A stretch of DNA of 64,000 nucleotides from Ensifer adhaerens (GTDB lineage Bacteria > Pseudomonadota > Alphaproteobacteria > Rhizobiales > Rhizobiaceae), in assembly GCF_013283195.1 (NCBI RefSeq), contig NZ_JABEKT010000004.1:124001-188000 (forward strand), read 5' to 3'. Each line of letters starts with the position of its first letter. The first letter of the stretch is position 1. The notes below the pieces were generated by a model that saw only the letters and a list, made by a program, of their open reading frames with translations, did not search any database and was not told the DNA's origin. The translations under genes and the position numbers were made by a program. Positions 8,043-64,000 of this stretch are shown one piece after another.

Positions 8043-8927
8043 TCACGCGACCTGATGGTTCGCCATGCGCTCGAGAGCACGCACCAGGCCGGAATGGTCG
8101 AGCCCGCTGTCGCCATTGGCGGCGCAGTTATTGAACAGTTCCTGCGTCGCTGCCGTGTTCGGCAGCGAAATGCCGAGGGACTTTGCACCCTGCAGCGCGA
8201 GGTTCAAGTCCTTCTGGTGCAGCGAGATGCGGAAGCCCGGATCGAAGGTGCGCTTGATCATCCGGTCACCATGGACTTCGAGGATGCGCGAAGAGGCAAA
8301 ACCGCCCATCAGCGCTTCGCGAACCCGCGCGGGATCGGCGCCGGCCTTCGAGGCGAAGACGAGTGCTTCGGAAACCGCCTCGATGGTGAGCGCAACGATG
8401 ATCTGATTGGCAACCTTCGTCACCTGGCCGTCACCGCAATCGCCGACGAGCGTGATATTCTTGCCCATCAGCTGAAACAGCGGCAGAGCGCGGTCGAAGC
8501 TTTCCTGCGAACCGCCGGCCATAATCGACAGCGAGGCGTTCTTGGCGCCGACTTCACCGCCGGAGACCGGCGCATCGACGTATTCCGCGCCGGTTTCGCG
8601 GACCTTCTTGGCGAACTCCTTGGTCTCGATCGGTGAGATCGAGCTCATGTCGATGACAAGCTTGCCCTTGGAGAGGCCGTAGGCGACGCCGTTCTCGCCG
8701 AAGAGGACGTCTTTCACTTCAGGCGTATCCGGCAGCATCAGGATGATGGTGTCGACGGTTTCCGCAAGCGCCTTCGGCGTCTCGACGAATTTCAGGCCGT
8801 TGTCGAGGAGTTCCTGCCGCGGCGGGATGGCGAATTTCGAGGTGATGACCGTGTGTCCGGCATCCTGCAGATGGCGTGCCATCGGCGTGCCCATGATGCC
8901 CAGTCCAATAAAGCCGATCGTTGCCAT
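8043..8927 (-). CDS. garR: 2-hydroxy-3-oxopropionate (tartronate semialdehyde) reductase
   Basis: 294 residues, beta-hydroxyacid dehydrogenase family. The N-terminal GLGIMGTPMARHL nucleotide-binding motif, the DAPVSGGEVGA substrate motif, and the catalytic Lys in GQVTKVANQI are all present. It reduces tartronate semialdehyde made by Gcl (or by Hyi from hydroxypyruvate) to D-glycerate. The start is supported by AGGAG 9 bases upstream. That site overlaps the end of hyi, so the two genes are tightly coupled. Confidence 0.95.
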   Translation of the reverse strand: MATIGFIGLGIMGTPMARHLQDAGHTVITSKFAIPPRQELLDNGLKFVETPKALAETVDTIILMLPDTPEVKDVLFGENGVAYGLSKGKLVIDMSSISPIETKEFAKKVRETGAEYVDAPVSGGEVGAKNASLSIMAGGSQESFDRALPLFQLMGKNITLVGDCGDGQVTKVANQIIVALTIEAVSEALVFASKAGADPARVREALMGGFASSRILEVHGDRMIKRTFDPGFRISLHQKDLNLALQGAKSLGISLPNTAATQELFNNCAANGDSGLDHSGLVRALERMANHQVA

Positions 8928-8932
8928 TGTGC

Positions 8933-9748
8933 TTAACTCCTGATCTTGATGATATCTGCGGATTGCGTGCGCTTGCGCTCAGTGCCAAGCCAGCCGAGGC
9001 CTTCGGCCGTCGTGGTGCGTGGCTTGTATTCGCAGCCGATCCAGCCGTCGTAGCCTGCCTCTTCGAGCGCATCGAAGACGTAGGGGTAGTTGATCTCCCC
9101 GGTCCCCGGCTCGTTGCGACCAGGATTGTCGGCGAGCTGAACGTGGGCGATGCGATCGGCAAAGCGCTTGTAGGTGCCGATAAGTTCGCCCTGCGTGCGC
9201 TGCTGGTGGTAGAGGTCGTACTGGATGAACAGATTGTCGCTGCCGACCTCGTCGATGATCGAGGCGGCCTGCTCGACCGTGTTGAGATAGAATCCGGGAA
9301 TATCGAAGTCGTTGATCGGTTCGATCAACAGGCGAATGCCCTGCTTGCCGAGTTCGCTTGCCGCAAGCCTGAGATTGGCGACCAGCGTGCTGCGCAGCAC
9401 CTCTTCCGAGATGCCCGCAGGTGCGATGCCGACCAAGCAGTTGACCTGTTTGCAATCGAGCGCGGTCGCATAGTCGATGGCGCTCGCCACGCCCTTGCGG
9501 AATTCGTCGATCCGATCGGGAAGGATAGCGATGCCGCGCTCGCCACCGGCCCAGTTGCCGGCCGGCAGGTTGTGCAGCACCTGCGTCAGCCCATAACGCT
9601 GCAGCTCGCCGCGCAGGCTCACTTTCTCGAATTCATAGGGGAAGAGATACTCGACACCTTCGAAACCGGCCTTGGCCGCAAGGGCAAAACGATCGAGGAA
9701 CGGCGCCTCGGTAAACAGCATTGTCAGGTTCGCAGCGAACTTCGCCAT
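8933..9748 (-). CDS. hyi: Hydroxypyruvate isomerase
   Basis: 271 residues, AP-endonuclease-2-like TIM barrel. It shows the family pattern: N-terminal MAKFAANLTMLFTE, FEGVEYLFPYE, LIEPINDFDIPGF with a metal-binding Glu, and GEINYPYVF near the C-terminus. It interconverts hydroxypyruvate and tartronate semialdehyde. It lies between gcl and garR in one operon, with AAGGAGG upstream of the ATG. Confidence 0.93.
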   Translation of the reverse strand: MAKFAANLTMLFTEAPFLDRFALAAKAGFEGVEYLFPYEFEKVSLRGELQRYGLTQVLHNLPAGNWAGGERGIAILPDRIDEFRKGVASAIDYATALDCKQVNCLVGIAPAGISEEVLRSTLVANLRLAASELGKQGIRLLIEPINDFDIPGFYLNTVEQAASIIDEVGSDNLFIQYDLYHQQRTQGELIGTYKRFADRIAHVQLADNPGRNEPGTGEINYPYVFDALEEAGYDGWIGCEYKPRTTTAEGLGWLGTERKRTQSADIIKIRS

Positions 9749-9775
9749 GCGGTGGTTCCTCCTTGTGATTGTTTT

Positions 9776-11560
9776 TTAATCGAGCAGCGCTGCGATCGCG
9801 GTCGGCACGTCCTCGCCGCGGATCGCCAGTTCCTCGAATTCGACGATCGCATTGATGTCGACGCCCATGGAGATGTTGGTGACGCGCTCGAGGATGAATT
9901 CGATGACGACGGGAACCTGATGCTCGTCCATCAATGCGCGCGCACGGGCGAACGCCTCCTGGAACTCGTTGGGACTGCGCACCCGGATCGCCTTGCAGCC
10001 GAGCCCTTCGGCGACCGCGACATGGTCGACGCCATAGCCCTTCTCTGCGTCGCCAGAGGCGTTGATGTTGTCGAAGGCGAGGCTGACCTCGAAGTCCATG
10101 TTGAAGCCGCGCTGGGCCTGGCGGATGAGGCCGAGATAGGAATTGTTCACGACAACATGCAGGTAGGGCAGCTTGTGCTGGGCGCCGACCGCCAGTTCCT
10201 CGATCATGAACTGGAAGTCATAGTCCCCGGAAAGCGCAACGATCGTCCGGTCCGGATCGGCGGCACGCACGCCGAGCGCTGCCGGCAATGTCCAGCCGAG
10301 CGGACCGGCCTGGCCGCAATTGATCCAGTTGCGCGGCTTGTAGACGTGCAGGAACTGGGCGCCGGCGATCTGGCTGAGGCCGATCGTCGAGACATAGCAG
10401 GTATCGCGGCCGAAGGCCTTGTTCATCTCTTCGTAGACGCGCTGGGGCTTCAGCGGCGTCTGGTCGAAATGGGTCTTGCGCAGCAGTGTCCGCTTGCGTT
10501 CGCGGCATTCTTCCGCCCAGCCCGACCAGTCGCGCAGCTTGCCGGCCGTCTTCCACTCGGTTGCGACGTCAAGGAACAGCTTCAGCGCGGCACCCGCATC
10601 GGAGACGACGCCGAAATCCGGCGCGAAGACGCGGCCGATCTGGGTCGGCTCGATATCGACGTGGACGAACTTGCGACCCTCCGTATAGGTCGGAACGTTG
10701 CCGGTGTGGCGGTTCGCCCAGCGATTGCCGACGCCGAGCACGAAGTCGGAGGCGAGCATGCTGGCGTTGCCGTAGCGATGCGACGTCTGCAGGCCGCACA
10801 TGCCGGCCATCAGCGGATGGTCGTCAGGGATCGTACCCCAGCCCATCAGCGTCGGGATAACCGGAATGCCGGTGATTTCGGCGAATTCGGTCAACAGGTC
10901 CGAGGCGTCGGCGTTGATGATGCCACCACCGGCGACGATCAGGGGCCGTTCGGCCTCGTTCAGCATCGCGATCACCTTCTCGGCCTGAGCACGCGTCGCC
11001 TTGGGCTTGTAGGGCTCGAGCGGTTCATATGTTTCGGGATCGAACTCAATCTCGGCGAGCTGAACATCGACGGGCAGGTCGATCAGGACCGGGCCCGGCC
11101 GGCCGGAACGCATCAGATGGAACGCCTTCTGGAAGACGAAGGGTACCAGCGCCGGCTCCATCACGGTCACGGCCCATTTGGTGACGGGTGCGGCGATCTT
11201 GGCGATATCGACCGCCTGGAAATCTTCCTTGTCGAGACGCGCGCGCGGCGCCTGGCCGGTGATGCAGAGGATCGGGATCGAGTCAGCGGAGGCCGAGTAG
11301 AGGCCGGTGATCATGTCGGTGCCGGCAGGGCCCGATGTGCCGATGCAGACGCCGATATTTCCGTGCCTGGCGCGGGTATAGCCTTCAGCCATATGCGAGG
11401 CGCCCTCGACATGGCGGGCAAGGATATGGCGGACCGAGCCGCGCGCCCTCAGGGCGGAGTAAAACGGATTGATCGCCGCACCGGGTACGCCGAAGGCACA
11501 ATCGATGCCCTCTTTTTCGAGAACGTAAACAGCCGCGTCAACGGCGCGCATCTTAGCCAT
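9776..11560 (-). CDS. gcl: Glyoxylate carboligase (tartronate-semialdehyde synthase)
   Basis: 594 residues from the ATG preceded by AGGAGG; a longer in-frame start exists but lacks a ribosome site. It is a ThDP-dependent enzyme with the three usual domains. Val51 in [13 protein letters not shown] replaces the ThDP-activating glutamate, the known hallmark of Gcl. A GDYDF...NN ThDP/Mg motif is in the C-terminal domain. It condenses two glyoxylate to tartronate semialdehyde and CO2. It is the first gene of gcl-hyi-garR-ttuD, divergent from the IclR regulator. Confidence 0.96.
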
Positions 11561-50200: not shown

Positions 50201-50286
50201 GTATGATGCACCGCAACCGCCCGATGTGTACATTCGGATGGCAAGCGCGATAGCGCGTGATGAGCATTTATGCAGGAGTTAGGGAA

Positions 50287-51831
50287 ATGACTGGCAACAC
50301 GATCGATTTGGGTGGACTTTCAGGGAATGGCCGGAAAGGCGGGCGCTCGATCCTTGCCTCTGCAGCCTTGGCCATGGTTCTGTCGACGAGCACGGCAGCG
50401 CTCGCGCAGGACGCAGGCTTCAACCCGGATGCCTCCATCGTCGTCGGTTCGCTCTATGAGCCGCAGAACCTGGACAACACTGCAGGCGCCGGCCAGGGCA
50501 TCAACGAAGCCTTCAACGGCAATGTCTACGAAGCGCTGTTCACGCTGACCGACGCGGGCGACGTCGCGCCCGGTCTCGCGGCCGAACAGACGATCAGCGA
50601 AGACGGCCTGACCTACACCTTCAAGCTCCGGCCGAACGTAACCTTCCATTCCGGCGACCCGCTGACGGCCAAGGATGTGAAGCACAGCATCGAGCGCGTT
50701 GTCGCGCCGGACTCCAAGAGCTCGCGCAAGAAGAGCCTGGCGACGATCAGCGAGATCCAGACGCCCGACGACCAGACTGTCGTGGTCAAGCTTTCCGCCC
50801 GCTCGATCTCGCTTCCCTACAATCTCAGCTACGTCTGGATCGTCAATGACGCGGCCAAGGATCTGAACGCCAGCGAAGACGGCACAGGCCCCTACCGCCT
50901 GGACGAATGGCGCCGCGGCTCCTCGCTGGCGCTGACGCGCAACGACAAGTACTGGGGCACGGCGCCCACCAATGGCGAAGTCGTCTTCCAGTACTTCACC
51001 GATGCGACCGCGCTCAACAATGCGCTGCTGACCGGCGCAGTCGATGTCATCACCAGCGTCCAGAGCCCGGATTCAATCGCGCAGTTCAAGGACAACCCTG
51101 ATTTCACCGTGACCGCCGGCCAGTCGACCACCAAGCAGCTGCTGGCGTTCAACGACCGGGTCGAACCCTTCAACAACATCAAGGTCCGCAAGGCCATCGC
51201 CCGCGCGATCGACGACAAGAAGCTGCTGGAGTCGATCTGGGGCGAATACGGCACGTTGATCGGTTCTTTCGTACCGCCGACCGATCCCTGGTATGTCGAC
51301 CTCACTGCCGTCGACACCTATGACGTCGAAAGCGCCAAGGCGCTCTTGAAGGAAGCCGGCTTTGCCGACGGCTTCTCGTTCAAGCTCGACACGCCGAATT
51401 ATGACCCGCATCCGATCGTTGCCCAGTTCCTGCAGAGCGAACTGGCGAAGGTCGGCATCAAGGTCGAGATCAACGTCATCACCGCCAATGAGTGGTACAC
51501 CAAGGTCTACAAGGCGCATGACTTCCAGGCGACGCTGCAGGAGCATGTCAACCATCGCGACATCGTCTTCTACGGCAACCCCGACTTCTACTGGGGATAC
51601 AACAATCCGAAGGTTGTCGACCTGATCAAGGAATCCGAAGCCGCCGCAAACACCGACGAACAGACGGCAAAGCTAACCGAGGCGAACCACATCATTGCCG
51701 AGGACGCAGCCAGCAACTGGCTCTACCTCTATCCGCAGATCGTGGTCTCGAGCTCGGCCGTTACCGGCTATCCCGTCAACGGCCTGAACTCGCAGTTCTT
51801 CGCCTACAACATCAAGAAAAGCGGGAACTGA
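50287..51831 (+). CDS. ABC transporter substrate-binding protein, family 5 (peptide/opine type)
   Basis: 514 residues from the ATG with AGGAG 8 bases upstream. An export signal (about residues 20-40) precedes a DppA/OppA-like domain (LTYTFKLRPNVTFHSGDPLTAKDV). It captures a peptide or similar solute for the permeases encoded downstream. The substrate is undetermined. Confidence 0.93.
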   Translation: MTGNTIDLGGLSGNGRKGGRSILASAALAMVLSTSTAALAQDAGFNPDASIVVGSLYEPQNLDNTAGAGQGINEAFNGNVYEALFTLTDAGDVAPGLAAEQTISEDGLTYTFKLRPNVTFHSGDPLTAKDVKHSIERVVAPDSKSSRKKSLATISEIQTPDDQTVVVKLSARSISLPYNLSYVWIVNDAAKDLNASEDGTGPYRLDEWRRGSSLALTRNDKYWGTAPTNGEVVFQYFTDATALNNALLTGAVDVITSVQSPDSIAQFKDNPDFTVTAGQSTTKQLLAFNDRVEPFNNIKVRKAIARAIDDKKLLESIWGEYGTLIGSFVPPTDPWYVDLTAVDTYDVESAKALLKEAGFADGFSFKLDTPNYDPHPIVAQFLQSELAKVGIKVEINVITANEWYTKVYKAHDFQATLQEHVNHRDIVFYGNPDFYWGYNNPKVVDLIKESEAAANTDEQTAKLTEANHIIAEDAASNWLYLYPQIVVSSSAVTGYPVNGLNSQFFAYNIKKSGN

Positions 51832-51842
51832 TCCCTCGTTTT

Positions 51843-51940
51843 CCAGAGCATTTCCAGGAAAAGTGCGAAGCGGTTTTCCGTCAGGAGATGCGTAAAAACA
51901 AAAGACAGAGCGCTTCCGCTTAAGTCGGAAGCGCTCTGAG
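51843..51940. repeat. Rhizobial intergenic repeat with two stem-loops
   Basis: The stretch beginning AGAGCATTTCCAGGAAAAGT is, from memory, a very common intergenic repeat in Rhizobiales genomes. It forms a 6-bp stem (GGAAAA/TTTTCC) and a perfect 13-bp stem (51906-51918 with 51926-51938, loop CTTAAGT). It lies just after the binding-protein gene. Confidence 0.65.
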
Positions 51941-51966
51941 TTCTCCGTTGTAACGACGCGCTGATG

Positions 51967-51995
51967 AAGGAGCCCCAAGCGATTTGGGGCTCCTT
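51967..51995 (+). terminator. Strong stem-loop downstream of the family 5 binding-protein gene
   Basis: Perfect 12-bp stem (51967-51978 with 51984-51995), loop GCGAT, short T run at the end of the right arm. It probably ends most transcripts after the binding-protein gene. The rest of the 421-bp gap (51996-52252) shows only the palindrome TTTCCGCGGAAA and no gene. Confidence 0.6.
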
Positions 51996-52252
51996 TGCGT
52001 TGCACGTCAGTCCGCTTCACTGCGCCGACAACAGCAACGCAAGGTCAGATCATTTTCGCCCGCATTTGCGACTGCTCCCCGCGCCGGCTCGGATGCCCGA
52101 AGTGCAGTGCAGCGTTTGAAACCCGCCGGATCATTTCCGCGGAAATCGATGCTCATTTCGCGGACAATGCAGTAGCGTCACGGTTGTTTTTGTGCAAAAG
52201 CCAGCACTGCCGGCCTCGGGCGTCACGCCTGCCGGACGAAAGGAATCCTGCC

Positions 52253-53218
52253 ATTCTCGCCTATATCCTGCGCCGATTCGCCATCTTGATCCTGTCGCTG
52301 CTGATTGCTGCGGTGGTGCTGTTTGTGTTGCTGCGTCTGCTGCCGGGCGACCCTGCGAACGCCCTGCTCTCCGTCGGTGCCGATCAGCAACAGATCGAGG
52401 CGGCGCGCGAACAGGTCGGTTCCAACCTGCCGCTCTGGGAGCAGTTCCTGCGCTTCGTCGGAAGTCTCGCCCGCTTCGATCTCGGAGCGTCCTTTGTCAG
52501 CGGCAAGCCCGTTGTCGAGGAAATTGCCACGCGCCTGACCGTGACGGTGCCGCTGGCGCTGCTCGGTTTCGCGCTCGCGATCGCCATCGCCGTTCCGCTT
52601 GGCATCCTCTCGGCCGTCAAAGCCAATCGCTGGTATGGTGCGGCCATTTCGACCGTGTCTCAGCTTGGCATAGCCATACCGGTCTTCTGGGTCGGCATCC
52701 TGCTGGTGACCGTCTTTGCCGTCAATCTCCGGCTCTTTCCCTCCGGCGGCTACCCTCGGCGCGGTTGGCAAAACGAGGGCCAGGTTCTTTACGCGCTCGC
52801 GCTGCCGGTTTTAACGATAGGGCTCGTGATGGCAGCCTCCCTCATCCGCTACATTCGATCTGCCACGCAGGACGTATTGGGCAGCGACTATCTGCGAACC
52901 GCCCGCGCGCTCGGAGCCAGCTTCTCGCAAGCCTTGATCCGGCATGGCATTCGTAACGGCGCCGTGCCGATCGTCTCGATCCTTGGCATCGAACTTGCGA
53001 CAACCCTGCTCGGCGCCGTCGTGGTCGAGCGGGTGTTCGCCCTGCCCGGCCTCGGCTCGATGCTGCTGCTTGCAATCGAGCAGCGCGACTACCCGAACGT
53101 CCAGGGCGTGTTGTTCATCTCGACCCTGCTGGTGCTGCTGATCGGCTTCGCCGCTGACCTGCTCCAGCGCGTCATCGATCCCCGTCTGCGCGAACGGGCG
53201 ACGGGAGCTGCAACATGA
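52253..53218 (+). CDS. ABC transporter permease (DppB-like), apparently with an ATT start codon
   Basis: 321 residues if translation begins at ATT 52253, which gives the classic N-terminus (I/M)LAYILRRFAILIL. GAAAGGA lies 8 bases upstream. No in-frame ATG, GTG or TTG is near: the next upstream possibility is a CTG at 52229, and farther starts would add implausible sequence. Six membrane segments and the permease signature are present (ASFSQALIRHGIRNGAVPIV). Its stop overlaps the next start (ATGA). Confidence 0.88.
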   Translation: MLAYILRRFAILILSLLIAAVVLFVLLRLLPGDPANALLSVGADQQQIEAAREQVGSNLPLWEQFLRFVGSLARFDLGASFVSGKPVVEEIATRLTVTVPLALLGFALAIAIAVPLGILSAVKANRWYGAAISTVSQLGIAIPVFWVGILLVTVFAVNLRLFPSGGYPRRGWQNEGQVLYALALPVLTIGLVMAASLIRYIRSATQDVLGSDYLRTARALGASFSQALIRHGIRNGAVPIVSILGIELATTLLGAVVVERVFALPGLGSMLLLAIEQRDYPNVQGVLFISTLLVLLIGFAADLLQRVIDPRLRERATGAAT

Positions 53219-54066
53219 CCGCATTGGACCTTTCATCGGATCGCCCCGCCCGCAGACATTCGCTGGCGCTATCGATCGGGCTTGCCCTCGTCGGCCTCAA
53301 TGTCGCGGTCGCGATCCTCACCCTGTTCTGCACGCCCTACGATCCGCTCAATGCCTCCGGCGGTCGTCTCGAAGCGCCGTCGTTGCTCCATTGGGTCGGC
53401 ACGGACCGGCTCGGCCGCGACTACCTGACGCAAATCATGATCGGCGCCAGAACGGCCTTGATCGTCGGCACCGGTGCGGTTGCGATCGGCGCCTCGATCG
53501 GCGTGACGCTCGGCATTCTCGCTGCTTTCGCCACGCGCCTGCTTGACGATGTCATGGCCGCCACGCTCGATATCCTGATCGCGTTTCCGACGCTGCTGCT
53601 GGCGATGCTGGTCGTTGCCGCGAGCGACAGTGCCAGCCTATGGTCGGCGATCCTGGCGCTCGGCCTGGCGATTTCGGCGATCGTCGCCCGTTTGACCCGC
53701 ATCCTCGCAAAGCGCGTGCTGCGTCAGGACTACATCATCGCGTCGCGGACCTCTGGCACCTCCTGGCCGGGCGTCGTCGTGCGCCATGTGCTGCCCAACA
53801 TCTGGCCGACACTCTCGGTCAACTTCGCTCTGCAATTCGGCCTGGCAGTGATCGCGGAAGCGTCGCTTTCCTATCTCGGCCTTGGCGCACCGCCACCCAA
53901 CGCCTCCTGGGGCAGGCTGCTGCAGGAAGCTCAAGGCACAGTCTATACCGCCCCCGTCGGCGCAATCGCGCCGGGCATTGCCCTTGTCGCACTGGTCATC
54001 GGCATGAACCTCCTTGCCGATGGCCTACGGGATGTCGGCGACCCGACACGCGGGAGATCACGATGA
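53215..54066 (+). CDS. ABC transporter permease (DppC-like)
   Basis: 283 residues, N-terminal DppC-type region then six membrane segments, with an EAA-like loop (IIASRTSGTSWPGVVVRHVLPNI). Stop and start overlap with both neighbours by 4 bp. Confidence 0.93.
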   Translation: MTALDLSSDRPARRHSLALSIGLALVGLNVAVAILTLFCTPYDPLNASGGRLEAPSLLHWVGTDRLGRDYLTQIMIGARTALIVGTGAVAIGASIGVTLGILAAFATRLLDDVMAATLDILIAFPTLLLAMLVVAASDSASLWSAILALGLAISAIVARLTRILAKRVLRQDYIIASRTSGTSWPGVVVRHVLPNIWPTLSVNFALQFGLAVIAEASLSYLGLGAPPPNASWGRLLQEAQGTVYTAPVGAIAPGIALVALVIGMNLLADGLRDVGDPTRGRSR

Positions 54067-54875
54067 GCGCCTTGCTTTCTGTTCAGGGCCTGACCGTAAG
54101 TACCGGTGGCAAGACACTGGTTTCGGACGTGTCCTTCTCCATCGGCTCCGGCGAACGCATGGGATTGATCGGCGAATCCGGTTCGGGCAAGTCGATGACC
54201 GCGATGGCCATTACCGGGCTTTTGCCGGCGAACATCTCCGTCACTGGCTCGATCATGCTTGATGGCCAGGAGGTGGTCGGCACGGATGACAAGCATCTGA
54301 ACCGGCTTCGTGGGGTTGCAACCGCAGTCGTCTTCCAGGAGCCGCTGACAGCGCTCGACCCCCTGATGAAGATCGGCAAGCAGATTGCCGAACCCGTCCG
54401 CCGCCGGCTCGCGCGCGAGCAGGGACGCGTGACGCGACTAGCGGTCGACCGCGAAGTGCTCGACCTGCTCGACAAGGTCGCGCTGCCGCAGCCGGAGCGC
54501 ATTGCCAACGCCTATCCGCACGAAGTGTCGGGCGGCCAGCGCCAGCGTGTGGCGATTGCCATGGCGCTCGCCTGCCGTCCAAAACTTCTGATCGCCGATG
54601 AACCGACAACGGCGCTCGACGTGACCACGCAGGCCGAAATCCTCAAGCTGCTCGATGGGCTGGTTCGCGAAACCGGAATGGCGCTTCTCTTCATCAGCCA
54701 TGACCTGCCAGTCGTGGCCGAAGTGGTGGAACGGGTGATGGTGCTTCGCGACGGGATCGCGGTTGAAGAGGGCGCCGTTGCCGACGTCTTCGGCAATCCG
54801 TCTCATGATTATACACAGACGCTCGTCGACGCCGCACGTGTGTTCGACGAGGCCCTTGGACGGACGGGATCCTGA
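54063..54875 (+). CDS. ABC transporter ATP-binding protein (DppD-like)
   Basis: 270 residues from the ATG that overlaps the permease stop. Walker [10 protein letters not shown], signature [14 protein letters not shown], Walker [14 protein letters not shown]-loop FISHDL. The usual long C-terminal oligopeptide extension with the Fe-S Cys motif of DppD appears absent, so it is a short form. Confidence 0.93.
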
Positions 54876-55615
54876 TGCTCGACCTGCGGAATGTGAACTT
54901 CGGCTACTCCCGCCACCGCAAGGTTTTGACCGATGTGTCGTTCAGCGTGCGTGCCGGCGCCAGCGTCGGCCTGGTTGGCGAGTCCGGTTCCGGCAAGACA
55001 ACACTGCTGCGACTGCTGCTCGGTCTCGAACGGCCCACCAGCGGCACCATTCGCTTCGGTGATGATGCGCTCGATCCGGCCGATGGTGCATTCATGCGTC
55101 GCTACCGGCGCGCGGTGCAACCGGTCTTCCAGGATCCTTACTCCTCCCTTGATCCGCGCCAGAAGGTGCTCGACATCATCGCCGAGCCGCTGCAATCGCT
55201 GCGCATCCCCGGACCGCACAAGGACGCGGTGGCGCAGGCGCTGGAGGCCGTTGGCCTGCCGCTCGACGCCATGCAGCGCTATCCGCACGAATTTTCCGGC
55301 GGCCAACGCCAGCGCATCGCAATTGCACGCGCCATCGTCGCACGCCCGCAGATCATTCTTGCAGACGAAGCGGTCAGCGCGCTTGATCTGTCGACCCGCA
55401 TCCGCATCGTCGATCTGTTCAAGACCCTTTCCGCAACGCTGACCCTGGTGTTTGTGTCGCACGACCTCGGTGTCGTCGCAGCACTTTGCGAGGAGATGGT
55501 CATCCTCGAAAAGGGACAGGTGGTCGAGAGCGGTAAGACGCGCGATATCCTGGCAGCACCGCAGCATCCCTATACGCAGCGGCTGCTATCCAGCATCCCG
55601 CGGATGCCCGCATGA
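54875..55615 (+). CDS. ABC transporter ATP-binding protein (DppF-like)
   Basis: 246 residues. Walker A GESGSGKTT, signature FSGGQRQRIAIARA, Walker B IILADEAVSALD, H-loop FVSHDL. Its ATG shares one base with the previous stop (TGATG). Last gene of the transporter. Confidence 0.93.
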   Translation: MLDLRNVNFGYSRHRKVLTDVSFSVRAGASVGLVGESGSGKTTLLRLLLGLERPTSGTIRFGDDALDPADGAFMRRYRRAVQPVFQDPYSSLDPRQKVLDIIAEPLQSLRIPGPHKDAVAQALEAVGLPLDAMQRYPHEFSGGQRQRIAIARAIVARPQIILADEAVSALDLSTRIRIVDLFKTLSATLTLVFVSHDLGVVAALCEEMVILEKGQVVESGKTRDILAAPQHPYTQRLLSSIPRMPA

Positions 55616-57230: not shown

Positions 57231-57992
57231 TTACCGGCCGTCGCCCTTGGCAACGAAGAGAAGATCGAAACCGCGGAATTCACGCCGGGCGGCGGACTTC
57301 TTGAGGGCAGTCCATATCGCCGAGGGATTGTCGAGGCGGAACCCGTTGAAGCTACGGACCAGGCCGAAGGTCGCCATGATGGTGCGAAACGCCCTGACGA
57401 TGACAGGGCCACTCAGCGAGGCGAACAGGATCTGCGGGTGCACGGCAAGCAGGACGCCCGCTGTCCGCGTCCGATCGATATCCCCGAACTGAGCCAGCGA
57501 CCTGTACTCATAACCCTCGATATCGATCTTGAAACACAGCTTGTCGGTTCGCGCCATCGACTGCAATTCGGCGATTTTGATCGTTTTCGCCTTGATGGCC
57601 TGCCCGGTCTCGTCCGCGATCAACGCCGAGGTTTCCGAACTGCCAAAACCGCCGCCGACCGAGTTCAGCACCAGCACCTCGTCCTCGGAGAGCGCGGCAT
57701 TGATCAATGTGACATCGCCCTCATTCTGCGGCTCCATTTCCTTCAGTATGCCGAAGCAGACGGGATCAGGCTCAACAGTAATGACATTGTCGGCGATCTG
57801 AGCCGCCCAATAGGGCGTCACGCCGATCCAGCCGCCGATATCGACAAAGGTCGTGTTGCCGTCGACGAGGCGTTCGATGTTCTGGAACGTGCAAGGCTCC
57901 CACTCGCCGCTTTGAAGGCGCGTAAAGAAACGCTTCTTCTCAGGCTTGTCGGGGAAATGGACTGTCTTACAGAAGTAGGTGATCGCACGCAT
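57231..57992 (-). CDS. FkbM-family methyltransferase
   Basis: 253 residues. SAM-binding motif I is FVDIGGWIGVTPYWAA, followed by VEPDPVCFGIL, and KIDIEGYEYRSL marks the FkbM family. These enzymes methylate sugars or polyketides. It follows the cyclic-nucleotide-binding gene by 99 bp on the same strand and may belong to one transcription unit with it and the ABC-like gene. Confidence 0.88.
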   Translation of the reverse strand: MRAITYFCKTVHFPDKPEKKRFFTRLQSGEWEPCTFQNIERLVDGNTTFVDIGGWIGVTPYWAAQIADNVITVEPDPVCFGILKEMEPQNEGDVTLINAALSEDEVLVLNSVGGGFGSSETSALIADETGQAIKAKTIKIAELQSMARTDKLCFKIDIEGYEYRSLAQFGDIDRTRTAGVLLAVHPQILFASLSGPVIVRAFRTIMATFGLVRSFNGFRLDNPSAIWTALKKSAARREFRGFDLLFVAKGDGR

Positions 57993-58091: not shown

Positions 58092-58556
58092 TCACGCTTC
58101 CATGCGCTCGTTGCGGCTGCGCGCTTCCGTCAGTTCAGCGGTCGTCTGGCTCAAGCGGTCGGCCAGCACGCGCATGATCTCCACCGCCATTTCCGGGAAG
58201 TCGGCCAAGAGCTTCAGGAAGTCGTCCTTGCGGATGCGCAGGGCCTCGAGCGGGGTCGTGGTGCGCACAGTTGCCGTACGCGGGGTATTACAGAGAATGG
58301 CGATTTCGCCGACGATCGAGTTCTGCTCGACCTCCGCCAGCTTCAGCGGCCCGCCTGCGGTCGTCACCAGCACGTCGGCCTTGCCGGAGAGGATGACATA
58401 GGCGGCGTCGCCGATATCACCCTGGTAGAAAAGGGCCTCCCCGGCGCTATACATGACCCGATCGGAGGTAAAGGCAAGAAGCTTCAATTTTGCAGGCGGC
58501 AATCCCGAAAACAGGGTTATCCGGCGCAGCATTTCCACTTCATCCTTGAGCAACAT
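58092..58556 (-). CDS. Stand-alone cyclic-nucleotide-binding domain protein
   Basis: 154 residues from the ATG; a GTG at 58559 is an alternative. A single Crp-type cNMP-binding domain spans about residues 10-130, with the phosphate-binding cassette GEIAILCNTPRTATV (G83, E84 and R93 retained). A charged helical tail follows, and there is no HTH, so it is not a transcription factor. It lies 92 bp downstream of the degenerate ABC gene on the same strand, suggesting that it senses cAMP or cGMP for that protein. Confidence 0.88.
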   Translation of the reverse strand: MLLKDEVEMLRRITLFSGLPPAKLKLLAFTSDRVMYSAGEALFYQGDIGDAAYVILSGKADVLVTTAGGPLKLAEVEQNSIVGEIAILCNTPRTATVRTTTPLEALRIRKDDFLKLLADFPEMAVEIMRVLADRLSQTTAELTEARSRNERMEA

Positions 58557-58648
58557 CACAATCCGTTTCTCCCAGTATCCGGTCGAGGGCAACCCGTGTC
58601 CCGCTTCGCCGCGGGACCTTATGCTCGTGCCCTGACATTAATATTACA

Positions 58649-61351
58649 TCAAGATGCCATTTCCTTATAGTCGGGTCCTTCGTTAGCCCCCACTTCCGTA
58701 TCGTCGTCGCGAAGCAGACGGCCATTCTCGAAAACTGCGACGCGGTCAAACAGTTCCATCACCGCCGGATTGGCCACCACCCAGACGATTGCCGGGTTGC
58801 GGCCATCCTGGCGCAGAAGCGCAAAGACGTTGCGGATCACCTGTTCCTGAACGCGTTGGTCGAGTGCCAGCAGCGGCTGGTTGAAGATGTAGAAATCGCA
58901 GATGCGGATGAGCGCGCGAGCCAGATCCAGCTTCTGCCGCTGACCCGCCGTCAGTCGCTTCCCCCCAGCGCCGACGTTGAAATCGAAGCCGAAGGCGAGC
59001 ACATCGTTGTAGAGACCGACAGCCTCGAAAAGATCGCGCACGATCGCCCGGATCTTCTCCGATCCGTCGGCGTGCTTGTGGCCAATGCGCCCGAAAAGCA
59101 CGTTATCGATGATGCTGCCGGAAGCGATGTAGCGGTTCGGACGATAGTGCTCGATCATGCCTGCGAGGTCCGCCGGCAGCCCTTCGTCGAACTCGCGTCG
59201 TGCTGCGACGATCCTTGCCATGAGCTCGTCGGTCAGTAGACCGAAACGGTGACGAGGTTCGATGTAACCGAAACAAAGCCGAATGATCTTGATCTGATCG
59301 TCCTCGGCAACATCAGCGCGCGCGCGGCCGCGAACCTTTTGCAACAACGCCTCATAAACGGGGATATCTTCAGCCGTCATGAAGGTCAGCTGCTGGAAGA
59401 ACGGGTGATCCGGCGGCAAGTCGCGGAACAGTTCGACAACGTTCTCGGCAATCTCCAGACCCATCTCATAGAAGACATCACGCAGGCCGACCCGCTGCAG
59501 CACTGTCTTGAAGAATGGATGCCCATCGAGCGCACCGTCCCACATTACCTGGTCGGTGATCGTACCGAAGAGCAGGTTTTCGCCGATGGTCGCTTCGATG
59601 TTGTACGAGCCGGGCTCGAAGAACACCACGAGATCGCTGAGCTTTTCCTTTTCGAGGCGCTGCCGCAGCGCACCACGCATCTCGACGATACCGGCGGCAA
59701 AAGCCGCATTGCGGTTCGGATCGATGGTAGAGCGGACCGCGAGCGCCATCACGTCGTTGGTGAGAAGAACGGCATCGAGGACCGGCCTGATCTTGACCAA
59801 CAGATCTTCGGGCCCGGTTGCGCCAGCAGCCCGATAGTCGATCCAATCGCTATTGACGTCAAAGTGTGGGTTCCCGGCGAGCTTGGCTTCGACCAGCTCC
59901 CACTTGCGATGGACCGCACCTTCACCTTCATAGTGCACTTCCGTCAACGGCGCGTGCTTCAACCCGTAGAGCAGGTTGTCACCAAGGCTGCCCTGGAACA
60001 CGTAGACATCCGAGGAAGCGTAGGAGATGCGTCTGCCGGTAACCGATTCCGGCATCTCCAGAATATCCTGGCTGCCGATGAGAATTCGACCGCTCGCCGG
60101 CCAGATCAGTCGGGCGAAAGCTTCGGCCAGCACTTCGCCGCCGGGCTTGAGTGCGACCGCCTCGCCTGGCTGCACCTGCAGCGAAACGTGATCGAGAAGC
60201 GTCGCGCCGCCATCATCGGTCACAGTCAGGTTGACCGCGGCGAGCGCGCCGCTCAAAGGCTCGGCACTTGTCGCGGCGATCGCATGAACCTTGGGATCGA
60301 GCAGCGGATCGACGCTGAATTGCTCGACGACCTGCGCATACTTGACCTGCACGTCCTGGCGCGCTTGATCCCAGTCGATCAGTTCCTTCAGAGGTCCCGG
60401 CAGATCCTTGTAGGCGCCGATGACGGCAACAAGCTGGCCTATGTCAAGCCGGCCCTGAAGCGCGAAATAGCCCCCGATCGAATAGAACAGGAAGGGCGTC
60501 ACCTGGGCGAGGAAGTTATTGATGAACTTGACCAGAAACTTCCACTGGTAAAGGTCGTAACGGATCTTGAAGATCCGGGCGAGCCGCGATGCGATGTCGG
60601 CGCGCTCGAAATTGGAGGTGTCGTATCCCCGGATGGTGCCGATGCCGTCGACGATCTCACTCACCCGGCCGGACAATTCTCGCGCAGTCAGCTGGCGCTC
60701 CCGCCCAAGGACGAGCAGCCGCTTGCGCATGCGTGGAATGATGATCGCCTGCACGGCGACGATGACCGTGGCGATGAGACCGAGCCAGAAGCTCTGCAGC
60801 AGAATGAAGATCAAGGCCGTCAATGCCTGGCCACCAAGCAGCGCCGGCGACACGAAGGCATCGCCAGTGAAACCGCCCAGCGGCTCCACTTCATCCTTGA
60901 TCATCGTCGAGATCTCGGCCGGCTTCACCCTCTTGAAATGCGTCGGTGGAAACCGCAGCACCCGATCGACGAGTTCGAAGCGGATGCGTCGCAAGAGACG
61001 CTCGCCGAGCCGTCCCTTGAAGGTGTTGATGTAGAACTTGAAAAGGCCGTTCACCACCACAAGCAGCAGGAAGACGAGGCTCAGTGCCAGAAGCATACCT
61101 TCGCGGCCGAGCTGGAAGCCGTCGAACAGATTGATCGTCCCCAGATAGGGCAGGTCAAAAGAGATCGCCAGGAACGCCTGCGTCGCTTCCGGACTGTCAA
61201 AGCCGTCACCTTGAATAGGTCCGTTGACGATCTGCTTGGGCAGATCGAAGGACAGGAAATACGGGATCATGGAAAACGCGACGACCACCAGAATCCAGAG
61301 CTGGTCCTTGCGCGTATGGGTCCAAATGTAGCGGGAGAGGCGTGATTCCAT
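58649..61351 (-). CDS. Degenerate ABC-exporter-like membrane protein with triplicated NBD segment
   Basis: 900 residues. Residues about 15-340 are an exporter-type membrane domain. The nucleotide-binding part starts near 367, but the Walker A region (LKPGGEVLAEAF, 401-412) lacks Gly-Lys-Ser/Thr. Walker B reads YIFNQP (821-826), with Asn-Gln for Asp-Glu. The H-loop reads VVANP (858-862), without His. A signature-like LTAGQRQKLDLARAL remains at 800-814. About 280 extra residues separate Walker A from the signature. Within them the segment (D/E)NLLFG plus VLxAVGLxNDVLA occurs three times: 458-463 and 524-536; 591-596 and 617-631; 749-754 and 773-788. ATP hydrolysis seems unlikely. Confidence 0.88.
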   Translation of the reverse strand: MESRLSRYIWTHTRKDQLWILVVVAFSMIPYFLSFDLPKQIVNGPIQGDGFDSPEATQAFLAISFDLPYLGTINLFDGFQLGREGMLLALSLVFLLLVVVNGLFKFYINTFKGRLGERLLRRIRFELVDRVLRFPPTHFKRVKPAEISTMIKDEVEPLGGFTGDAFVSPALLGGQALTALIFILLQSFWLGLIATVIVAVQAIIIPRMRKRLLVLGRERQLTARELSGRVSEIVDGIGTIRGYDTSNFERADIASRLARIFKIRYDLYQWKFLVKFINNFLAQVTPFLFYSIGGYFALQGRLDIGQLVAVIGAYKDLPGPLKELIDWDQARQDVQVKYAQVVEQFSVDPLLDPKVHAIAATSAEPLSGALAAVNLTVTDDGGATLLDHVSLQVQPGEAVALKPGGEVLAEAFARLIWPASGRILIGSQDILEMPESVTGRRISYASSDVYVFQGSLGDNLLYGLKHAPLTEVHYEGEGAVHRKWELVEAKLAGNPHFDVNSDWIDYRAAGATGPEDLLVKIRPVLDAVLLTNDVMALAVRSTIDPNRNAAFAAGIVEMRGALRQRLEKEKLSDLVVFFEPGSYNIEATIGENLLFGTITDQVMWDGALDGHPFFKTVLQRVGLRDVFYEMGLEIAENVVELFRDLPPDHPFFQQLTFMTAEDIPVYEALLQKVRGRARADVAEDDQIKIIRLCFGYIEPRHRFGLLTDELMARIVAARREFDEGLPADLAGMIEHYRPNRYIASGSIIDNVLFGRIGHKHADGSEKIRAIVRDLFEAVGLYNDVLAFGFDFNVGAGGKRLTAGQRQKLDLARALIRICDFYIFNQPLLALDQRVQEQVIRNVFALLRQDGRNPAIVWVVANPAVMELFDRVAVFENGRLLRDDDTEVGANEGPDYKEMAS

Positions 61352-61669
61352 GTTTCTGGCAACGGGACCTTATTGAACACTACGATGTATGCGGCGAGGG
61401 CTGCCACCATACCCGGCCACGATATGCTTGCTTACCGCGCATTTCGACTGAATTGGCACAGGCCTTTGGCCGCGAACGCGTTTCGGCGAAATCCGATCCG
61501 GTTTCGAATCCGGTTTATTAGATTATGCAGGTGCAAGAGAAATCCGCAATGGACACCTGCCTTCGCCTTTGAGACCCCCGATCGAATTCCATGACAAGAG
61601 GTGGAACTCGTACGAAGGGAGAAGAGCGCCCTTGTTGCACTCGATTGCCCGCCAGCTTACAACGGCAGC
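61352..61669. other. Divergent intergenic region with direct repeat
   Basis: About 318 bp between the ABC-like gene and the methyltransferase-like gene. It contains ATCCGGTTT twice with a 12-bp period (61496-61504 and 61508-61516), and a 7-bp inverted pair GCAGGTG/CACCTGC near 61527-61560. No convincing gene. Confidence 0.4.
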
Positions 61670-62344
61670 ATGAAACACGCCAGCCACCACCCTACTCCCG
61701 CGAGCGACTGGTACGAAAATGCTTTCGACCTGACGCGCGGAATTGCCGCTTACACCAGAAGTCCGCTGATCGACGGTATCGCCAAGGTGATCGCCAAACA
61801 CCCCGACGCCGATATCGCCAACGCCTTCAACCACAAGCAGGTCGCCTGCAAGATCTGGGCGCGCGACACACTGCTGGAAGCAGCAGGAAAATCCTATCAG
61901 CGGATCGTGGTTCTGGGCGGTTGGTACGGGATCCTTCCGGCAATGTTGCTGGAGGACCGCCGCTTCGAGATTGCCGCAGCTGAAAGCTATGACATCGACC
62001 CCTCGGTCGAGACTGTGGCACGCACGCTCAACGCGACCCATGCCGACCGTTTTCGCGCGGTCACCGCCGATATGTATGCGATCGACTACCCTCGTCTCGG
62101 CGCCGACCTGATCGTCAACACGAGCTGCGAACACATCGCCGATCTTCGCAGCTGGCTTGAGCTGATACCGGCGGGCACACGTGTCCTCCTGCAGTCCAAC
62201 GATTATTTCAGCGAACCGACACACATCAACTGCGTTGCGTCCGTCGAAGCGTTCGCCGACCAGGCCAAACTTGCGACACTCGATTTTGCCGGCGCCTTGC
62301 CGACGAAGAAATACACACGGTTCATGCTGATCGGGACGGTCTGA
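61670..62344 (+). CDS. SAM-dependent methyltransferase-like protein
   Basis: 225 residues from the ATG at 61670; a GTG at 61601 would add 23. A Rossmann-type motif (RIVVLGGWYGILPAMLL) and an acidic loop (YDIDPSVETVARTLNA) resemble class I methyltransferases, but no target family is evident. Its 3' end overlaps the convergent glycosyltransferase gene by 23 bp. Confidence 0.7.
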   Translation: MKHASHHPTPASDWYENAFDLTRGIAAYTRSPLIDGIAKVIAKHPDADIANAFNHKQVACKIWARDTLLEAAGKSYQRIVVLGGWYGILPAMLLEDRRFEIAAAESYDIDPSVETVARTLNATHADRFRAVTADMYAIDYPRLGADLIVNTSCEHIADLRSWLELIPAGTRVLLQSNDYFSEPTHINCVASVEAFADQAKLATLDFAGALPTKKYTRFMLIGTV

Positions 62345-63488
62345 CGGGCGCCTTCAAAAGCCACGCACGCAGGATCGCCGCCGTCTGGGCGGCGCCTTCG
62401 AGGTCAAGCGGCGGCATTGCCGGCTTCGCACGAGCAAGCTGCGTTTCGACATCGCGCGCCAGGCGAGCAGGCGATACGTCGTGCTCGGGCAGGACGCCGG
62501 CGAGCCCGAGCTTTTCCAGTCGCGCTGCCCGCGTCGATTGTTCCGTTTCGCCGCCGGCCGTGAACGGGATCAGCAGAGATGCGCAACCCGCTCGAATGAT
62601 GTCGCAGACCGTATTGTAACCGGCCTGTGAGACGGAAAGCCGCGCACCGGAAAGCAGGCTGGCGAAATCCCGGCGAAACCGGAACAGTTTCACATTCCCC
62701 GGAGCGGCGGATTCGAATGCGTCGTAGTCGACCTGCGGCAGATTGGGCCCGGTCACCAGGCACCAACTAAGCTCCGGCGGCAGAAGTTTCGCGGCCTCCA
62801 GGCCGGCGCCGATCAGTTCCTTACCGACAGCGCCGCCGCCAGCCGAAACGACCACATCGAACCGCTCCAGCGGCAGCGCAGGCGCGCTGCCCGCAACGAG
62901 GCCGGTATAGGCGACTTTGTCGGCGATCTCCCGCGCGTAGGGAAACGTCTCTTCAAGCCGGGCAAAGGCGGGATCGCCATGCACGAGCACGAGGTCGAAA
63001 TGCGCCTGCACCAGCTCCAGCATTTCCTCCGCCCGGCCCGGCTTGTTCCGCTCCTGCAAGATATCGCGCAGCGATGTAGCCACCAGCGGGCGCCGGTTTG
63101 ACGCCTCGATCAGGTCGAGCAACGGCATCAGTTCGAACCGCATCTGGCGCCGCCCGAACGGAAAGGCCTCGAAGATCACGACATCCGGATCACATGTGCG
63201 GAATGCGTCCAGCAGCATGTTCCGCCGACGTTCCCTGAAATCATCATCGACGGGCTTTCCGGTTTCGTCGGCGAGGCCCGAAAACCCCTTGTCGCCGGCA
63301 ACGACCGGTGGAAGCGCGACGTGCTTCAATTCGGACGCTGGAAAGCCGGGAACCGGTGTACCGCCAGTGACCACCGTGACGTCGAAACCATCGAAAGCGA
63401 GCGCACTGCAAACGCGGCTTGCCCTTGCCAGATGGCCGATCCCCAGCAGATGCTGGACATAAAAGAAGACCCGCAGCTGCCGTGTCAT
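62322..63488 (-). CDS. Glycosyltransferase, MurG/GT28-like
   Basis: 388 residues; the ATG overlaps the stop of the upstream glycosyltransferase (ATGA, 63485-63488). The N-terminal glycine-rich GIGHLARASR is the acceptor-side motif. The C-terminal donor site AGYNTVCDIIRAGCASLLIPF resembles GT28 UDP-sugar enzymes. It probably builds an envelope polysaccharide or glycolipid; the sugar is unknown. Confidence 0.85.
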   Translation of the reverse strand: MTRQLRVFFYVQHLLGIGHLARASRVCSALAFDGFDVTVVTGGTPVPGFPASELKHVALPPVVAGDKGFSGLADETGKPVDDDFRERRRNMLLDAFRTCDPDVVIFEAFPFGRRQMRFELMPLLDLIEASNRRPLVATSLRDILQERNKPGRAEEMLELVQAHFDLVLVHGDPAFARLEETFPYAREIADKVAYTGLVAGSAPALPLERFDVVVSAGGGAVGKELIGAGLEAAKLLPPELSWCLVTGPNLPQVDYDAFESAAPGNVKLFRFRRDFASLLSGARLSVSQAGYNTVCDIIRAGCASLLIPFTAGGETEQSTRAARLEKLGLAGVLPEHDVSPARLARDVETQLARAKPAMPPLDLEGAAQTAAILRAWLLKAPVRPSRSA

Positions 63489-64000
63489 GCCGATTTCCAC
63501 TCGTGTGCAAACAGGTTCGTCAGCTGCTCGATGCTGGAGTGATGGTCAAACTGCGTCCTCACCCGCCGTTCGGCAGCAGCGCCCAGCTGGCTGCGGCGCG
63601 CAGGGTTGCGGATCAGCTCTTCCAGGGCGAGCGACAGCGCTTGCGGATCTTCCGAAGGAACGACCCGGCCGTTTTCACCGTCAATCAGGAGCTCGGGCAC
63701 GCCTGATATTGCCGTAGACACGCAAGCAAGCCGCTGGCTCGACGCTTCGACGAGCACATTCGGCAGGCCATCGCGATCACCGTCGGCCGTCACGCGGCAG
63801 GCGAGCGCAAAGATATCACTGGTTCGATAGTGCGCGAGCACGTCCGTCTGGTCGAGTGCACCCTTCCAGGCAATTCTGTCGGAAATGCCGAGTTCGTCAC
63901 CCAAAACCTTGAGCTTCCCCGTCAATTCTCCGGCGCCGATGTGCTCGAAGCGCCAATGCAGCTCGGGCGGCAACAGGGCGAGCGCCTTCAGGAGGACATC
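63485..64000 (-). CDS. Glycosyltransferase, GT4-like (5' end outside window)
   Basis: Only the C-terminal 171 residues are inside the window; the frame is open to base 64000. The GT4 donor-binding region is recognisable (DRIAWKGALDQTDV, DRDGLPNVLVEASS, SGVPELLIDGENG). It is co-translated with the GT28-like gene, forming part of a surface-glycan locus that continues past the window. Confidence 0.85.
   Translation of the reverse strand, partial: DVLLKALALLPPELHWRFEHIGAGELTGKLKVLGDELGISDRIAWKGALDQTDVLAHYRTSDIFALACRVTADGDRDGLPNVLVEASSQRLACVSTAISGVPELLIDGENGRVVPSEDPQALSLALEELIRNPARRSQLGAAAERRVRTQFDHHSSIEQLTNLFAHEWKSA

Follow-up and report, generated by a model that had tools for sequence, protein, structure and literature searches.

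The window, i.e. the whole stretch of 64,000 nucleotides of Ensifer adhaerens DNA that was analysed, carries a gene for an ABC exporter-like protein, hereafter the pseudo-exporter, followed by a small gene for a cyclic-nucleotide-binding (cNMP) protein, P0002 (Table 1). The exporter-like membrane domain claimed by the original prediction is confirmed by a PF00664 (ABC_membrane) match of 75.6 bits against a cut-off of 28, and the ABC_tran match is weak and split. The NBD fold is complete and carries about 300 extra residues, close to the 280 first estimated. Both the ABC_membrane domain and the NBD fold that characterise the ABC exporter superfamily are present, and the descent of the family from ABC exporters is clear. 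The protein is 99% identical over its full length to one from Sinorhizobium sp. A49. A Foldseek search with the full structure model returned ABC transporters, but superposed them poorly over the whole chain (rmsd 22-39), and the matches in a viral structure library were low-identity ATPases, of ABC type and others. Confidence in the membrane part of the full model is low (mean pLDDT 70.5, pTM 0.51), so no claim is drawn from it.

Table 1. Features of the pseudo-exporter locus, in window coordinates, with the evidence for each.
Feature	Coordinates	Strand	Evidence
FkbM-type methyltransferase, added locally to the cluster	57231..57992	(-)	TIGR01444 above cut-off
Cyclic-nucleotide-binding partner protein P0002, 166 aa, downstream of the pseudo-exporter	58092..58592	(-)	PF00027, E 1.1e-20
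Pseudo-exporter gene, 900 aa	58649..61351	(-)	Homologues
ABC exporter membrane domain, residues 87-311	60419..61093	(-)	PF00664, E 6.6e-21
Former Walker A, residues 398-410, without Lys	60122..60160	(-)	GK in 0/92 homologues at >=60% identity
Segment copy 1 (with the former Q-loop, DNLLYG and helix VLDAVLLTNDVMALAVR), residues 436-545	59717..60046	(-)	hhalign; loose motif in 180/191 homologues
Segment copy 2, residues 566-645: FEPGSYNIEATIGENLLFG and helix	59417..59656	(-)	hhalign; loose motif in 185/191 homologues
Conserved unique stretch separating copy 2 from copy 3, residues 646-723, with YIEPRHRFGLL inside	59183..59416	(-)	Conservation
Segment copy 3, residues 724-800: HYRPNRYIASGSIIDNVLFG, helices and X-loop	58952..59182	(-)	hhalign; loose motif in 189/191 homologues
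Former signature LTAGQ, residues 800-804	58940..58954	(-)	Sequence and homologue alignment
Asn824-Gln825 replacing the Walker B Asp-Glu	58877..58882	(-)	Sequence and homologue alignment
Divergent gene between glycosyltransferase and pseudo-exporter	61601-62344	(+)	No Pfam match
GT28-like glycosyltransferase, same cluster	62322..63500	(-)	PF04101
GT4 glycosyltransferase, extending past the window end	63485..64000	(-)	Pfam

The pseudo-exporter shares its membrane-domain family, NBD fold and domain order with the Type I/IV ABC exporters (MsbA, NdvA/ChvA, Sav1866, PCAT/ComA). Unlike them, it contains no GxxxxGK[ST], and thus no Walker A Lys, and it lacks the Walker B Asp, the catalytic Glu, the LSGGQ signature and the H-loop His (Ala860 stands at this position), all of which an ATP-driven exporter would carry; these losses are as first described. 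A further difference is that its post-Q-loop segment is present three times. It falls far below the equivalog cut-off for MsbA (TIGR02203, 145.5 of 602 bits) and the cut-off for the glucan exporter NdvA/ChvA (TIGR01192, 53.8 of 585.4 bits). Databases name the homologous genes ABC transporter ATP-binding proteins. In the accessible part of one paper, SMb20813 of S. meliloti, a candidate counterpart of the window gene, is msbA-like and is used as an MsbA homologue.

The pseudo-exporters form a real, conserved and widespread alphaproteobacterial family. At least 549 encoding stretches match the window protein, and relatives occur in 96 of 289 alphaproteobacterial genomes, in 97 of 199 genomes of the family Rhizobiaceae and in 31 of 398 genomes of the phylum, all 31 of them inside the class Alphaproteobacteria. 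They are also found in 262 plasmid records. A phage origin was considered and rejected, no match being found at E 1e-20 among 50,697 phage records.

The loss of ATPase motifs extends to the family. Among 191 non-redundant homologues, GxxxxGK[ST] is present in 7, any GK in 55, the Walker B Asp in 20, the Glu in 50, the H-loop His in 28 and LSGGQ, at the aligned place, in none; these counts rest on a fast MAFFT run and should be read as approximate where the rows diverge most. The 92 homologues with at least 60% identity include none with GK, the Walker B Asp or the H-loop His, and all 92 have Asn at the Asp position. This family-wide loss supports the original reading of the protein as a pseudo-transporter.

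Could these proteins still be exporters that use ATP through unusual motifs, at least in part of the family? Five homologues (L233, L104, L109, L103 and L166) retain much of the ATP site, L233 being the nearest to intact (K-T, D-E and H present, signature LSGAQ, Q-loop without Q). ATP binding is possible in some members, since 55 of the 191 keep GK and 50 keep the Glu. Furthermore, a tree of 103 rows requires recurrent state changes (at least 16 for the Lys, 13 for the Asp, 13 for the Glu and 15 for the His). However, the complete absence of GK, Asp and His among the close homologues, and of Lys, Asp, Glu and His from all rows of the 16-row rhizobial clade that includes the window protein, makes ATP-driven export very unlikely. 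An independent-pairs test of Lys loss against Glu loss is not significant (median p 0.375).

Motif loss in the window protein could also betray a decaying gene without function, and the S. meliloti 1021 reference shows an apparent frame change. Selection already refutes this explanation, which is scarcely credible: dN/dS against four relatives is 0.036, 0.071, 0.094 and 0.109 for the whole gene and 0.054, 0.061, 0.097 and 0.106 for the insert. The whole-gene values reject a recent pseudogene, and conservation of the protein is family-wide. Simple decay is likewise excluded because the three segments are mostly retained, LSGGQ is absent throughout the family and dN/dS is low. Homologues with intact Walker motifs would have pointed to a gene that had simply decayed, and the search for them among the 191 argues, with the dN/dS, against it. 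The frame change itself lies on pSymB (L149, NC_003078.1 833126-853432, at 8598-11307), where residues 1-136 and 135-900 are in different frames. It may be a real change or a sequencing error; several other S. meliloti records match residues 1-900 in one piece.

The original prediction also claimed that an NBD segment occurs three times. With hhalign profiles built from 192 aligned sequences, copies 2 and 3 match with a probability of 98.7%, copies 1 and 2 with 95.7% and copies 1 and 3 with 95.2%. Chance was rejected as an explanation of the triple segment, the highest of 30 control pairs reaching 7.4%. A stricter motif pattern is kept at copies 1, 2 and 3 in 141, 168 and 188 of the 191 homologues. 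The claim is therefore borne out by both the profile matches and the retention in most homologues: the three segments are alike and conserved. The repeat unit comprises the post-Q-loop strand, the [DE]NLL[FY]G motif and then helices, and calling the repeated pattern an X-loop was a misnomer. When matched to a profile of this genome's ordinary exporters (11 of 14 non-self loci, 3 having been removed by a length and motif filter), copy 1 reaches 97.5%, copy 3 92.0% and copy 2 58.5%. The stretch 646-723 matches none of the other segments compared by hhalign. Since copy 1 follows on from the Q-loop side as in a normal NBD and copy 3 is followed by the usual X-loop and signature helix, copy 2 and this unique stretch are the additions.

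The distribution of conservation is reversed in comparison with ordinary exporters. The membrane domain is better conserved than the NBD in 183 of 187 pseudo-exporter homologues (four homologues with a mean identity of at least 90% were not banded), whereas the NBD is the better conserved in all 18 comparisons of two ordinary exporters of the window genome with their relatives. Hence the membrane domain still matters, and catalytic constraint no longer acts on the NBD. The four exceptions are the most divergent homologues, with 18.3% identity in the membrane domain and 26.3% in the NBD. In the far group of L143, L144 and L145 (also L180 and L186), identity is likewise 18% in the membrane domain and 26% in the NBD, and the segments are largely retained; this group may have moved still further from transport.

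The second component of the system is P0002, which probably starts at the ATG at 58556 and would then have 154 aa. PF00027 is its sole Pfam match (73.9 bits against a cut-off of 27.5). In CRP, a Glu and an Arg of the phosphate-binding cassette bind the ribose and the phosphate. P0002 has both of these presumed ligand residues (Glu96 and Arg105), and across 174 distinct cNMP sequences the Glu is kept in 165 and the Arg in 172, Asp replacing Glu in some fused domains. No helix-turn-helix or DNA-binding domain, as expected of a CRP/FNR regulator, was found in P0002 by Pfam, and the protein scores 42.1 of 266 bits against PRK11753 (CRP).

The pairing is conserved. A cNMP relative lies near the pseudo-exporter in 145 of 150 loci, i.e. 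in the fetched flanks of 81/81 near, 26/29 far and 38/40 further loci. In the series L120-L148 it was found in 24 of 29, and four of these (L137, L138, L139 and partly L140) encode exporter and cNMP domain on one open frame, as does L223. Such fusions occur in divergent relatives and place the cNMP domain at the C-terminus. In a deliberately diverse set of 43 loci, 30 have a cNMP match at E 1e-12. The 'sensor' suggested by the original prediction, in which this partner was absent, thus gains a concrete form, an adjacent or fused cNMP protein.

No cNMP gene was found in the flanks of L143-L145, nor beside the plasmid-borne homologue of Methylobacterium radiotolerans pNYY1_4. In the same way, neither a cNMP gene nor a glycosyltransferase cluster was found in the fetched flanks of L103, L104, L109, L230 and L232 (wider: L275-L279), in which the Lys and the Glu are still present. 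A simple rule by which the ATP site persists wherever the cNMP neighbour is missing is not supported: L103, L104, L109, L230 and L232 fit it, but L143-L145 have neither the neighbour nor the site. L233, with the most intact ATP site, is not one of the loci in which a cNMP match is missing.

A partial precedent is HetC of Nostoc PCC 7120, an exporter-type protein whose cyclic-nucleotide-binding domain, according to the accessible part of the report, sits on an active exporter and is needed for function (PMC10986499). In HetC the domain is N-terminal, a C39 peptidase domain is also present and the catalytic Glu is essential (PMC10986499), whereas the partner of the pseudo-exporter is separate or C-terminal and the ATPase is dead; only ABC_membrane and ABC_tran, and neither a C39 peptidase nor an N-terminal cNMP domain, were found by Pfam on the window protein. 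In vitro, the HetC domain bound ppGpp and not cAMP, as stated in the same part of that report (PMC10986499); cAMP or cGMP should therefore not be assumed to be the ligand of the cNMP partner. The searches agree with the original statement that no system with such an architecture has been described, HetC as known from that part of the report being the nearest. No description of the family was found in the article texts searched, and the pseudo-exporter family with its signalling partner is probably undescribed so far.

Degenerate NBD sites with a structural or regulatory role are known from TM287/288, TmrAB, CFTR and SUR1, and the degenerate half of exporters with one such site is thought to be structural and mechanical, as far as the consulted portion of the source goes (PMC7756269). 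By the same portion, a degenerate site beside an active one is usual in heteromeric exporters (PMC7756269), which raises the possibility, contained in the original prediction, that the protein is the inactive half of a heteromer whose active half is encoded elsewhere. The genome does hold 13 other ABC_membrane matches above the cut-off. However, it has no close paralogue of the pseudo-exporter (the next match is at 8e-11 and 19% identity), and no ordinary exporter gene lies in the annotated clusters; the suggestion thus finds no support. In documented heteromers the signature and Walker motifs are degraded partly and not all at once, while the window protein has lost all of them. An inactive heteromer half is thus unlikely. 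TM287/288, TmrAB, CFTR and SUR1, as that source portrays them in part, keep one active site; for the pseudo-exporter no active half is seen, and a homodimer would hold two dead sites, since the only NBD type of the protein is degenerate.

In rhizobia, the pair lies at the end of a surface-glycan-type gene cluster. In the window genome it is preceded by genes for a class III cyclase, a polysaccharide lyase, a fused Opp-type ATPase, an SBP_bac_5 protein, two permeases and GT28-like, GT4 and GT28-like glycosyltransferases, all of the cluster being on one strand save one methyltransferase-like gene. In S. meliloti RCAM1750, the annotation gives a class I SAM methyltransferase at the place of window 61601-62344. 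By annotation, the same gene order with the cyclase recurs in R. johnstonii 3841, R. etli CFN 42, S. meliloti RCAM1750 and Phyllobacterium zundukense. The cluster of Shinella WSD5-1 lacks the cyclase, which is thus present in 5 of 6 hand-picked rhizobial clusters, and a nucleotide-sugar dehydrogenase is nearby in these four and in Shinella. A DUF3095 gene is found near the cyclase end in the window genome, R. johnstonii, R. etli and Phyllobacterium (L193, 16135-17535 (-); L194, 25257-26483 (-)). Another Opp-type importer, separate from that of the cluster, is encoded only a few kb from the cluster at window 50257-55615 (+), by genes for SBP_bac_5, two permeases and ATPases.

Among the 43 diverse loci, the glycosyltransferase families of the cluster occur in 21-25 and glycosyltransferase neighbours in 19-25, a histidine phosphatase in 19 and a deacetylase-like gene in 16; an importer ATPase is present in 27, a count of little weight given how common such ATPases are. 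Relatives of the FkbM-type methyltransferase are found in 20/81 near and 0/29 far loci. Of 45 wide loci, 8 have a class III cyclase in their flanks, a modest excess over the roughly 3 expected from the density in the window genome (25 in 7.07 Mb), counted with an HMM built partly from the same loci; the cyclase directly adjoins the pair in L177, L187, L223 and L234. In the accessible parts of the literature, three findings are candidate links to the cluster only: an SMb20811 variant without known importance, an effect of smb20804/20805 on K-antigen and a requirement for pRL110056 in root colonisation.

The dead ATPase site, the triplication and the cNMP partner suggest that a pump may have become a signal-controlled gate or switch. 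We give about an even chance to the proposal that these proteins, a family conserved among Alphaproteobacteria, are pseudo-ATPase ABC exporters switched by a cNMP-sensing subunit instead of ATP. The exporter membrane domain would have been retained under the strongest constraint, and the NBD would have turned into a module for docking and relay, in which the helical-subdomain segment has gained two additional copies. The small cNMP-binding protein would provide a ligand input replacing the ancestral ATP. The cyclase, encoded by the cluster in most rhizobia seen, could produce cAMP or cGMP; uptake by the cNMP-binding protein would alter its contact with the pseudo-NBD, which would relay the change through the membrane domain. 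The latter might then open or close a path, or alter a complex, for a glycan made by the neighbouring glycosyltransferases.

A bolder form of this proposal and a rival to it can be considered. Tentatively, the pair could form a cNMP-gated conduit through which a surface glycan, or the lipid that carries it, passes, the sensor subunit, separate or fused, docking on the triplicated helical subdomain and replacing the ATP power stroke. The rival reading, conceivable though doubtful, is that the membrane domain moves nothing and that the pair is a sensor or scaffold only, organising or regulating the glycosyltransferases or the Opp-type importer by cyclic nucleotide. The absence of an ATPase site, the presence of the cNMP partner, the glycosyltransferases and importer of the cluster and the membrane domain of the four most divergent homologues, less conserved there than the NBD, are consistent with a sensor or scaffold; that conservation peaks in the membrane domain in the other homologues argues against it.

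If the switched pseudo-exporter is real, the annotation 'ABC transporter ATP-binding' would be doubly wrong, there being no ATPase and a signalling input instead. A natural ATP-free exporter fold, with a ligand subunit and fusions, would offer a test of what this fold can do without hydrolysis, and the close and divergent homologues form a graded series of ATP-motif loss. The family would also allow a test of how the helical subdomain of an NBD can multiply with the fold unbroken. Finally, it would make it possible to test whether cyclic nucleotides act directly on bacterial envelope assembly, instead of via transcription.
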